A stretch of DNA of 64,000 nt from Candidatus Kuenenia stuttgartensis (lineage in GTDB: Bacteria; Planctomycetota; Planctomycetia; Planctomycetales; Planctomycetaceae). Made by a program: the position numbers and the translations under genes. Location: NCBI GenBank assembly GCA_945904015.1, contig CAMDPK010000016.1, positions 1 to 64,000 on the forward strand, read 5' to 3'. Of this stretch, positions 2,511-42,131 are shown in pieces. Below the pieces are notes generated by a model, which saw only the letters and a list, made by a program, of their open reading frames with translations, did not search any database and was not told where the DNA came from. The stretch's first letter is position 1. Each line of letters starts with the position of its first letter.

Positions 2511-3773
2511 CTACTTCGCCTTCGGCAACAACACACACAGCACACTCGACACGACAACGGCCGCCGCGAACGCGACGAAGACAATGTCGAATGACTGCCG
2601 ACGGTCGCAAAAGTCGATCAACGCGGCCGCGATGGCCCCACCGATTCCCCAACTCAGACCCATCGTGATCGAACTGGCGACACGCTGCGTCTCTGGGAAC
2701 AACTGCTGTCCGTAGCTGATGAAGACCGGCTGCGCCATCCCCAATAACAACCCGGTGGCCAACGATGCTGCCGACAACCAGAGTCCCTGCAAACTCGGCA
2801 TCGCCAACAAACAGGGCACTGACAGCAGTGGCACGAACCACAACACGAGTCGCTCCAATCGCGGCCGCACGATAATCGCGCACAGCAAACCTCCCAGGCC
2901 AATCCCGCCCAGGAACGCGGACTGCATCCAGCCGATCTCCGTCTCGGAGCACTTCAGCGACTTCAGCCAGTAGGCCAGTGCAATGGGCACTCCGGACGCC
3001 GCGATGACTCGCGATGCACCGGCCAACAACAGCAACAGCATTAGCGACCGACGAGACGCCGATCCGAAACGCAAGCGAGGGCGATCGGTCGGTGGACTCG
3101 TTTCGAGACAACTCGTTTCGGAATGTTTGCCTTCGCTCGCGATTGGGATGAGTTTCTTTGAGCCGACGGTCGGTGTCACGGGCCGATATGCGAGCCGCAT
3201 CACGATCATCAGTGCCAACCCAATCGCGATCCCGCCTGTCAGCGCACGCAGGCCGTAATGATCCACGATCCAACCGCTGCACGGTGGCCCGACCGACTGA
3301 CCGAGGAATCCGCCCATCGCGAAAATCGAAACCGCGCGGCTGCGAGCGTTCGGCCAGCAGTTTCCCGACAGAGTCGCCCCTTCCGGATGAAACGCCGCGA
3401 TCCCCATTCCGGCCATCGTCAGCAAGAATCCCAGAGCCAAAAAATGGTCGAACAGCCCCAAGCAACCGAGGCAGACGCAACACGTCGCTGGCCCCAGCCA
3501 CACCAGCCAGCGGCTGGCGGCTCGATCGCCGATCATCGCAAAGCCGAGTTGGCTGAACGACGAGGCCAGTCCCCACACACACAACATCCAAAACGTCGGC
3601 ACCTGGTAGTGCTCTTTGAGCGTCGGCCACAGCGGAGTCACCTGCGAAGCGACGGTATCAACGACGAAGTGCATTCCAGACAACACGAACAGCGCGAACG
3701 TCCCACCTTGGACACTGCGTGCGAAGGCAGGCGTTTCATCAGGAGCACGAATGGTCGTGTCGAGCGAACTCAC
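2511..3773 (-). CDS. Major facilitator superfamily transporter
   Basis: Polytopic inner-membrane transporter, about 420 residues with roughly 12 hydrophobic segments. The GGFLGQSVGPP stretch and the HFVVDT-type first helix resemble the fosmidomycin-resistance (Fsr-like) group of MFS exporters; substrate unknown. The frame stays open upstream, but that part is only the opposite frame of leuA. I chose the GTG at 3773, which keeps the whole first helix; ATG at 3674 would cut into it. The start lies 8 bases after the leuA stop on the same strand, so both are likely one transcript. An export role linked to branched-chain amino acids would be a guess from position only. Confidence 0.85.
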   Translation of the reverse strand: MSSLDTTIRAPDETPAFARSVQGGTFALFVLSGMHFVVDTVASQVTPLWPTLKEHYQVPTFWMLCVWGLASSFSQLGFAMIGDRAASRWLVWLGPATCCVCLGCLGLFDHFLALGFLLTMAGMGIAAFHPEGATLSGNCWPNARSRAVSIFAMGGFLGQSVGPPCSGWIVDHYGLRALTGGIAIGLALMIVMRLAYRPVTPTVGSKKLIPIASEGKHSETSCLETSPPTDRPRLRFGSASRRSLMLLLLLAGASRVIAASGVPIALAYWLKSLKCSETEIGWMQSAFLGGIGLGGLLCAIIVRPRLERLVLWFVPLLSVPCLLAMPSLQGLWLSAASLATGLLLGMAQPVFISYGQQLFPETQRVASSITMGLSWGIGGAIAAALIDFCDRRQSFDIVFVAFAAAVVVSSVLCVLLPKAK

Positions 3774-3781
3774 AATGCGGC

Positions 3782-5377
3782 TCAGTCGTGTTGCGCGAGG
3801 ACTCGCTTGGTCGGCTGCTTGTCGGATATCGCTCGGTTGAGCGCTTTCAAGTACGCCTCGGCGCTGGCTTGGATGATGTCGGTGCTGATCCCTTTGCCGT
3901 GGTACGCCTTGTCGTTGACGAGAATCTCGACGAACGACTCGCCTTGAGCATCCTCGCCGCCGGTGACGCTGCGGACCTGGAAATTTCGCAGCGTGCCGGA
4001 GACTCCGGTGATCCGCTTCATCGCCAGGAAGATCGCATCGAGCGGCCCGTCGCCAGTTGCCGCGTCGCGCTTCGGCTGCGGATCGCCTTCGCATTGCAAC
4101 TCGACGGTCGCCGTGGGAATCGTGTTGGCACCGGCAAAGGTCTGCACGCTGATCAGCTTCCAACGATCCGTCGCGTCGCTCTTCTCGCCGATGTGGCTCT
4201 CGATGAGCGCGATGATGTCCGAGTCATACACGTCCTTCTTTTTGTCGCAGAGCGTGATGAACTCTTGAAAGACCTTCTCGAACACGTCGGTCTCCAATTC
4301 GAAGCCCAACGATTTGACTCGATCTCGGAAGGCGTGCCGGCCGCTGTGCTTTCCCAAGACCAAATTCGAGCCGACGTAGCCAACATCATCCGGCCGCATG
4401 ATCTCGTAAGTCGCTCGGTTCTGGAGCATCCCGTGTTGATGGATGCCCGCCTCATGAGCGAACGCGTTCTGGCCGACGATCGCTTTGTTGCGTTGCACCG
4501 TCATGCCGGTGATGCGGCTGACCAAGCGGCTGATCGGGAACAGCTTCGGCGTGTTGATGTTCGTCCTCACGCCGTAGAAGTCGCCGCGCGTTTTGATCGC
4601 CATCACGATTTCTTCGAGCGCCGCGTTGCCGGCCCGCTCGCCCAAACCGTTGATCGTGCATTCGACTTGCCGAGCACCCGCCTCGACACCGGCCAAGCTG
4701 TTCGCAACCGCCAGGCCGAGATCGTTGTGACAGTGCGTGCTAATGACCGCTTTGCCGATGTTCGACACGTTCGCCTTGAGATACTCGATGCAGCGTTTGA
4801 AGTGCTCTGGCGTCGCGTAGCCGACCGTGTCAGGGATGTTGACGGTCGTGGCCCCGGCGTCGATCGCCTTCTCGACCACTTGGCACAGGAAGTCGAGTTC
4901 CGTGCGAGCCGCGTCCTCCGGCGAGAACTCCAAGTTCGGTGTCGTGATGTCCGGTCGCGAGCACATCAGGTCGCGCGTGTACTTCACCATCTCGACCGTA
5001 GACTTCAGGATCTGGTCCTCGGCCATCTTCAACTTGAACTCGCGATGGATCGGACTGGTCGCCAAGAAGACGTGAATGCGGCACTTCTCCGCTTCTTTGA
5101 GCGCCTCCCACGCGCGGTCGATGTCCTCTTTGCGGCAGCGAGCCAAGCCGCAGATGACCGTGCGGTTGCCGAACTCGCGAGCGATCGTCCGCACCGCCTC
5201 GAAGTCATCGGGCGACGCGATCGGGAAGCCCGCCTCAATGACGTCCACGCCGAGTTCGACGAGCGCCTTCGCGATTTCCAGCTTCTCGGCCGAGTTCATG
5301 CTGCAGCCGGGGGACTGCTCGCCGTCGCGCAAGGTGGTGTCGAAGATCGTGATCGTGTCAGGCTGAGTGGCAGACAT
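3782..5377 (-). CDS. leuA: 2-isopropylmalate synthase
   Basis: First committed enzyme of leucine synthesis: condenses acetyl-CoA with 2-oxoisovalerate. The 531-residue length is normal for full-length LeuA. FDTTLRDGEQSPG (residues 12-24) and HCHNDLG (about 215-221, with the metal-binding His pair) mark the TIM-barrel catalytic domain; NGLGERAGN follows. The C-terminal third (about 390-525) matches the LeuA regulatory domain where leucine feedback-inhibits. The ATG has a GGGAG ribosome-binding site 7 bases upstream. The 240-base 5' leader carries a leucine-rich leader peptide and a terminator, so transcription is probably controlled by attenuation. The MFS gene follows 8 bases downstream. Confidence 0.97.
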   Translation of the reverse strand: MSATQPDTITIFDTTLRDGEQSPGCSMNSAEKLEIAKALVELGVDVIEAGFPIASPDDFEAVRTIAREFGNRTVICGLARCRKEDIDRAWEALKEAEKCRIHVFLATSPIHREFKLKMAEDQILKSTVEMVKYTRDLMCSRPDITTPNLEFSPEDAARTELDFLCQVVEKAIDAGATTVNIPDTVGYATPEHFKRCIEYLKANVSNIGKAVISTHCHNDLGLAVANSLAGVEAGARQVECTINGLGERAGNAALEEIVMAIKTRGDFYGVRTNINTPKLFPISRLVSRITGMTVQRNKAIVGQNAFAHEAGIHQHGMLQNRATYEIMRPDDVGYVGSNLVLGKHSGRHAFRDRVKSLGFELETDVFEKVFQEFITLCDKKKDVYDSDIIALIESHIGEKSDATDRWKLISVQTFAGANTIPTATVELQCEGDPQPKRDAATGDGPLDAIFLAMKRITGVSGTLRNFQVRSVTGGEDAQGESFVEILVNDKAYHGKGISTDIIQASAEAYLKALNRAISDKQPTKRVLAQHD

Positions 5378-5392
5378 TTGGAAACTCCCATG

Positions 5393-5458
5393 TTCCTAGC
5401 CCGACGCGCTAGCGAGGGTTGTTCCTCGCCACCCCTCGCTAGCGCGTCGGGCTAGGAA
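5393..5458. repeat. Palindromic element, family C, in leuA leader
   Basis: Perfect 26-base arms (5393-5418 and 5433-5458) built on TAGCCCGACGCGCTAGCGAGGG, with a 14-base loop. It lies between the attenuator terminator and the leuA ribosome-binding site, so it would be part of the full-length leuA mRNA leader. A related element with the GCGCTAGCG core sits inside the coding sequence at 8642. Confidence 0.9.
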
Positions 5459-5486
5459 TGCCGCGCTGGCGAGGGATTCAACAAAC

Positions 5487-5521
5487 AAAAAAACCCTGAG
5501 CCTCCATTGGAGGCTCAGGGT
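5487..5521 (-). terminator. Intrinsic terminator upstream of leuA (attenuator segments 3:4)
   Basis: On the minus strand a perfect 13-bp stem (arms 5509-5521 and 5493-5505) with a 3-base loop is followed at once by a run of seven T. This is a textbook Rho-independent terminator. It lies 110 bases upstream of the leuA ATG on the leuA strand, and downstream of a short leucine-rich reading frame, so it can end transcription before leuA. It is the only stem followed by a clear U-run that I found in the window. Confidence 0.93.
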
Positions 5522-5562
5522 GTATTCGCACGGTCAAAAGCGACAACGACACCAAAGCCCCC
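5509..5562 (-). promoter_or_regulatory. Antiterminator hairpin of the leuA attenuator (segments 2:3)
   Basis: In the minus-strand RNA, GGGGGCUUUGGUGU (5562-5549, just after the leader-peptide stop) can pair with ACACCCUGAGCCUCC (5523-5509). This gives about 14 pairs, counting two G-U, with one U-U mismatch and one bulge. The second segment is the ascending arm of the terminator, so the two structures exclude each other. The leader codons at 5587-5577 (CCUUAGCCUUC) can in turn pair with the first segment, giving the classical 1:2 / 2:3 / 3:4 scheme. Pairing was worked out by eye; no energies were computed. Confidence 0.8.
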
Positions 5563-5565
5563 GCG

Positions 5566-5613
5566 TCAACGCAGGAGAAGGCTAAGGGCCAGCAGTCGCA
5601 AAGAAGATCGCAT
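5566..5613 (-). CDS. leuL: Leucine-rich leader peptide of the leuA attenuator
   Basis: A 15-codon reading frame encoding MRSSLRLLALSLLLR, then TGA. Seven of its 15 codons are leucine (TTG, CTG, CTG, CTT, CTT, CTC, CTG). An AGGA ribosome-binding site lies about 7 bases before the ATG and a sigma70-like promoter lies about 28 bases upstream. The expected role is sensing charged tRNA-Leu: a ribosome stalled at the Leu codons would free segment 2 to form the antiterminator, while one that reaches the stop codon would mask segment 2 and allow the terminator. The product itself is probably not functional. Placement directly before leuA on the same strand supports this strongly. Confidence 0.88.
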   Translation of the reverse strand: MRSSLRLLALSLLLR

Positions 5614-5640
5614 GACGGTTCCTATCGGAAAGTGGGCGGC

Positions 5641-5670
5641 AATCTATCCAGCGAGATTCCGCACGGTCAA
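5641..5670 (-). promoter_or_regulatory. Predicted promoter of leuL-leuA
   Basis: On the minus strand TTGACC (5670-5665) and TAGATT (5646-5641) are separated by 18 bases, a reasonable sigma70-type match (5/6 and 4/6). Start of transcription near 5634 would give a leader RNA of about 148 bases to the end of the terminator, a size typical of amino-acid attenuators. Confidence 0.6.
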
Positions 5671-5734
5671 GTGGCAAGCAAGAGAAGTTTTGACGGAAGC
5701 AGTGAAACGAGAAGGAGTCACTAAATCCCTAGCC

Positions 5735-41876: not shown

Positions 41877-41913
41877 CGGCAGCGCATCACTCGATCGGAG
41901 TGATTTCGTTTTT

Positions 41914-42105
41914 GTCCCGCCAGGGACATTCGACAATAGCCCAGCACGTCAGTGCTGGGATGGCCGATAAGCGTGCGTCATGAGTCCCGTCAGGGACGAC
42001 AGACCTCGATCGTTTTCTGTCGTCCCTGACGGGACTTTATGATGATTGCCGCCACAGAACCCAGCACTGACGTGCTGGGCTATTTTCGATCCGTCCCTGG
42101 CGGGA
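41914..42105. repeat. Composite palindrome of three repeat modules, family G
   Basis: Order of modules: GTCCCGCCAGGGAC, CCCAGCACGTCAGTGCTGGG, GTCCCGTCAGGGACGACAGA, then the complements in reverse order up to GTCCCTGGCGGGAC. The whole is a near-palindrome of about 190 bases in which each module is itself palindromic. It fills the gap between two convergent genes. Confidence 0.9.
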
Positions 42106-42131
42106 CTCAAAGATATGCTCAGATTGAGCGG

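Follow-up and report, generated by a model that had tools for sequence, protein, structure and literature searches.

We identified upstream of leuA in a planctomycete genome an element that is very probably a ribosome-mediated transcription attenuator sensing charged tRNA-Leu, as judged from its anatomy, its conservation, the covariation of its stems, its codon bias and the match between leader residue and pathway in related elements. Ribosome-mediated attenuation is best known from E. coli. In the proposed mechanism, for which we infer that the leader is translated, that the element responds to leucine and that termination occurs in vivo, RNA polymerase would transcribe a Leu-rich leader with a ribosome trailing behind it. 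When Leu-tRNA is scarce, the ribosome would stall at the Leu codons and leave segment 2 of the leader free, which would pair with segment 3 as an antiterminator and allow transcription to continue into leuA. When Leu-tRNA is plentiful, the ribosome would reach the stop codon and cover segment 2, and segments 3 and 4 would then pair, stopping transcription at the T run.

The element lies on the minus strand of the window, by which we mean the whole 64-kb stretch of DNA that was analysed. The regulated gene, leuA (3782-5377, with its ATG at 5377), encodes a 2-isopropylmalate synthase of 531 aa, identified by family profiles (NCBIfam NF002086, 753 bits against a cut-off of 532; TIGR00973, 705 against 598.7) and containing the Pfam domains HMGL-like and LeuA_dimer. 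On re-reading the sequence, we recovered every part of the original prediction: a promoter TTGACC-18-TAGATT (5641-5670, with TTGACC at 5670-5665, an 18-nt spacer and TAGATT at 5646-5641), a Shine-Dalgarno-like AGGA (5620-5623) situated 6 nt ahead of the leader ATG, a leader frame of 15 codons with 7 Leu (MRSSLRLLALSLLLR and a stop; 5566-5613, ATG at 5613 to TGA at 5566), and an intrinsic terminator (5487-5521) with a 13-bp stem at 5521-5493 and T7 at 5493-5487. Segment 2, the 5' arm of the antiterminator, corresponds to 5549-5562, and segment 3, both the 3' arm of the antiterminator and the 5' arm of the terminator, to 5509-5523, both supported by covariation and duplex energies; a candidate segment 1 within the Leu codons (5577-5587) could pair with segment 2 (-12.4 kcal/mol). 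The whole leader RNA folds with z = -5.1 relative to shuffled sequences. When both strands of the 64 kb were scanned for leaders rich in any one of 15 amino acids and accompanied by a strong terminator, the Leu leader and terminator of leuA were the sole match. A palindromic REP-like element (5392-5460; CTAGCCCGACGCGC...GCGCGTCGGGCTAG, with GCGCGTCGGGCTAG arms) stands between the terminator and leuA and is probably outside the attenuator proper; diverged copies are found at the corresponding position in several genus-level relatives, and in other genera it is degenerate or replaced.

Taken alone, the promoter sequence occurs in the window no more often than expected by chance (2 matches against 3.7). 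Most of the family carries a related form (TTGAC, 16-18 nt and a TA-rich hexamer), which is kept in 44 of 51 loci, against about 7.7 of 51 at control positions, and the promoter sits at distance -57 in six genus-level relatives, with a seventh at -58. The AGGA site shows no clear conservation beyond the window's genus. Downstream of leuA, an MFS transporter gene with a GTG start (2511-3773, minus strand; Pfam MFS_1) begins 8 nt past the leuA stop, and is probably co-transcribed with leuA in the window's genus. The proposal that tRNA-Leu controls both genes is supported for leuA by the conserved leader and its covariation, whereas for the MFS gene it is plausible in the window's genus only, as homologues adjoining leuA are confined to genus-level relatives; we accordingly rejected this gene as a family-wide member of the leuA unit.

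We traced leuA, together with the sequence ahead of it, through 59 related and 392 phylum-wide genomes, and read 111 upstream regions. The window's genome and many of its relatives are fragmented assemblies or MAGs, the nearest named relatives being MAGs labelled Planctomyces sp., Planctomycetota or Planctomycetaceae bacterium, with Schlesneria more distant. Under a fixed rule (a terminator and an open frame of 10-30 codons, starting 60-150 nt upstream, with a Leu content of at least 26% and no fewer than 5 Leu), leader and terminator were present ahead of leuA in 51 of 56 loci in the genus and family, in 20 of 31 loci representing nine further families within the class, and in 5 of 24 outside the class, against 0 of 111 in the reverse-strand control. 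With a more permissive measure, 6 or more Leu in 12 codons, the counts were 48/56, 23/31 and 9/24 in these three groups on the forward strand and 0, 1 and 0 on the reverse. The spacing from open frame to terminator is near constant within the family, mostly 86-102 nt. The rule-based scan of the 111 regions found no recognisable leader at several loci, and at most loci outside the class; absence at single loci may reflect the search rule, a contig edge or true loss. At one locus (L012, genome G026), the leader and terminator lie about 580 nt upstream of leuA, and the intervening several hundred bases seem to contain another open frame.

The fixed rule was also positive at 19 of 27 planctomycete loci in a named GTDB genome set, which may overlap with the earlier genomes, and at 1 of 30 leuA loci from other phyla (Proteobacteria, Chloroflexi, Gemmatimonadota and others). 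This single non-planctomycete match, L220 from Gemmatimonadales, has MLLSLLLTVLIGEQGVRGVPRAA and then a terminator upstream of leuA, and may be chance. A covariance model built from the leuA leaders matched 57 of 61 family genomes, with the top matches mostly upstream of leuA. Three of its matches (L126, L133 and L137) were set aside, judged by their encoded peptides, as apparent terminators beside tRNA genes.

The attenuator reading had been made to depend on a Leu-rich short frame and compensating stem changes ahead of leuA in other planctomycetes, and both were found, the frame at the frequencies given above and the changes in both alternative helices. Across 32 aligned leaders, 96% of terminator (3:4) cells are paired and 6 of 10 pairs show both-sided changes (96-97% over this and an earlier, smaller alignment, the latter with both-sided changes at 9 of 11 pairs); for the antiterminator (2:3) the corresponding figures are 83% and 8 of 12 pairs. 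For both helices the covariation score was reached by 0 of 500 shuffles, which ignore kinship, and the percentage paired and the score dropped when partner columns were slid by one to three. Antiterminator covariation was marginal by some measures with 22 sequences and clear with 32, and the 2:3 duplex gave a mean z of -2.16 against shuffled intervening sequence (76 loci). Computed alternative folds agreed with the expectation that antiterminator (-20.0 kcal/mol) and terminator (-27.7 kcal/mol) are mutually exclusive. The terminator was the thermodynamically preferred structure in all full-length folds, ahead of the antiterminator, indicating that read-through would depend on kinetics, as in known attenuators.

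The pairing of leader codons with segment 2 that had been proposed as a protector has little comparative support. This 1:2 pairing barely beats shuffles (mean z -0.43 in the genus and -0.64 in the family; -0.2 to -0.6 across groups), and was not chosen in the ribosome-free fold of the window leader before segment 4, in which 2:3 is partly formed, making basal termination without translation uncertain. Such a protector is typical of trp-type attenuators, and not of all. The leader stop codon falls within segment 2 in 33 of 60 loci having a good 2:3 duplex (for example GGUCUUAGG, pairing with CCUGAGACC), so masking by the terminating ribosome is a likelier switch than 1:2 pairing; in the window's genus the stop codon ends 3 nt ahead of segment 2. 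With assumed ribosome edges, the window leader folded with a ribosome stalled on Leu12-14 gave a 2:3 hairpin of -21.7 to -24.5 kcal/mol before segment 4 emerges, against a weak remnant of -10.2 kcal/mol once the ribosome is placed at the stop codon. These folds support, for the window, a switch set by ribosome position, in which the antiterminator is probably blocked by the terminating ribosome itself.

The leaders are enriched in rare Leu codons, with CTA and CTT making up 21% and 22% of leader Leu codons against 0% and 3% in sampled leuA genes of the same organisms, which is the pattern that would be expected of a sensor. The enteric leuL leader also uses rare Leu codons. The planctomycete element further shares with enteric leuL (Rfam RF00512, Leu_leader) a Leu-rich leader, an antiterminator and an intrinsic terminator before leuA, but differs from it in that the stop codon is usually inside segment 2, in that conservation of the 1:2 arm is weakly supported, and, in the window, in that an MFS gene and not leuBCD follows leuA. 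RF00512 had no match over 5380-5700 at the gathering score or up to E = 10, the leuA leaders of relatives were without Rfam matches at the gathering score, and a high-E-value search of the window leader returned scattered unrelated matches only, some of them on the palindrome. T-box leaders respond to tRNA charging and regulate amino-acid genes through termination, binding tRNA directly with no leader frame; charged-tRNA sensing and termination would be common to the two systems, a leader frame is present only in the planctomycete element, and the T-box covariance model had no match in the window. As a separate observation, the window contains two matches to Acido-Lenti-1 RNA (RF01687), at 41913-41959 (minus strand) and 42060-42107 (plus strand), on opposite strands about 100 nt apart.

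Leucine codons upstream of leuA are also known from actinobacteria, in the LEU element, a pseudoknot in which they pair with the leuA Shine-Dalgarno and which is not regarded as classical attenuation (Seliverstov 2005, PMC1262725). The earlier appeal to actinobacterial leucine leaders therefore calls for caution; the experiments cited in that paper did not support classical attenuation there (PMC1262725). The reported behaviour of the Streptomyces coelicolor leuA leader, unlike that of a classical attenuator (PMC1262725), would favour control of leuA by a ligand- or protein-binding RNA, whether a riboswitch or a LEU-like element, with leader translation incidental. We consider this very unlikely for the planctomycete element, whose leader has no Rfam match and lacks a conserved unpaired core in the stretch from segment 2 to segment 3, and in which conservation falls on the reading frame, the residue identity and the rare codons and not on an aptamer; its covarying terminator and antiterminator likewise differ from the LEU pseudoknot as published. 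Further systems for comparison are the classical attenuators predicted for trp, trpS and leuS in Actinobacteria (PMC1262725), which have regulatory codons, antiterminator and terminator in common with the planctomycete element, though genes and phylum differ. A Leu-rich attenuator peptide for branched-chain synthesis is described from Staphylococcus aureus (PMC5794164), at an unrelated locus of a firmicute whose branched-chain genes are also under CodY.

As the original prediction had supposed, text searches turned up no earlier account of planctomycete attenuators for leucine or isoleucine, subscription literature being mostly outside their scope. The main texts of a terminator survey of 302 genomes (PMC2965389) and of a study of leader genes that included planctomycetes (PMC4833913) do not mention leuA. 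The planctomycete leuA element belongs to known leader-peptide attenuation, with the stop-codon position as a recurring variation.

We additionally identified weaker matches of the covariance model upstream of two other first-step enzymes, citramalate synthase (cimA; TIGR00977, 680 bits where the cut-off is 450) and DAHP synthase (identified by NF006421). The window's own genome has an Ile element (L119, G000:C77:3128-3213) ahead of a cimA gene at 3271-4878, and Ile-rich cimA leaders occur in relatives (L257-L286), examples being MRPVIIVISIITTSSE and MGGVGIIVGIIIVPNPGSARL, with CCTCAGG...CCTGAGG terminators after them. Of 29 cimA loci, 18 (compared with 1 in the reverse-strand control) have 5 or more Ile in 12 codons ahead of the gene, and every one of these 18 has a terminator; the cimA antiterminator, around UGAGG/CCUCA, gave z = -2.06 (28 loci). 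The Ile codons ATT and ATC are used 98:48 in these leaders, compared with 156:454 in genes. Aromatic leaders, such as GGWWFYFYGFP and KYWFGFWF, precede DAHP synthase in some members of the family and in further families, with a Phe/Tyr/Trp-rich leader in 7 of 18 located loci; none was found before the DAHP synthase of the window's genus. Loci in other genera with a Phe/Tyr/Trp-rich leader and a terminator ahead of DAHP synthase are L127 (downstream gene putative), L128, L136, L138, L140, L141, L144, L229, L247, L248 and L253.

That the leader residue switches with the pathway while the design stays constant is strong evidence that charged tRNA is sensed, and is our strongest argument. The pairs Leu-leuA, Ile-cimA and aromatic-DAHP synthase appear, from sequence comparison, to form a group of sister attenuators within the phylum. 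We lean towards the view that Planctomycetota have an ancestral set of three ribosome-coupled attenuators with a shared variant of the switch: the leader stop lies within or beside the antiterminator, the terminating ribosome acts as antagonist and a protector hairpin is unneeded.

The same switch in residues, to Ile before cimA and to aromatic residues before DAHP synthase, speaks against the notion that the hairpin is the terminator of a small RNA or of a gene lying upstream and that the Leu frame is chance or a degraded signal-peptide-like frame. Leu-rich N-termini are common, and the promoter match is by itself unremarkable; leader, antiterminator and terminator nevertheless occur together before leuA in many families and not once among the 111 reverse-strand regions, leaving this account even less credible than a binding RNA. 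Equally slight is the chance that leader translation acts on leuA translation or on Rho termination instead of the intrinsic terminator, since, although leader genes can work via Rho or reinitiation (PMC4833913), the intrinsic terminator is the best-conserved part and covaries, and about 190 nt separate the leader stop from the leuA ATG, a distance beyond the short-range reinitiation described in that study.

Thus, planctomycetes appear, on the genomic evidence, to control amino-acid synthesis through ribosome-coupled attenuation. Planctomycetes are a little-studied phylum with unusual cell organisation and poorly characterised gene regulation. The leaders would serve as readable tRNA-charging sensors for Leu, Ile and the aromatic amino acids, the Ile leaders support the annotation of cimA as the entry to isoleucine, and the covariance model of the leuA leader could become a new RNA family. 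Ribosome-mediated attenuation needs translation closely coupled to transcription, and the wide conservation of leader-peptide attenuators therefore predicts close transcription-translation coupling in planctomycetes.
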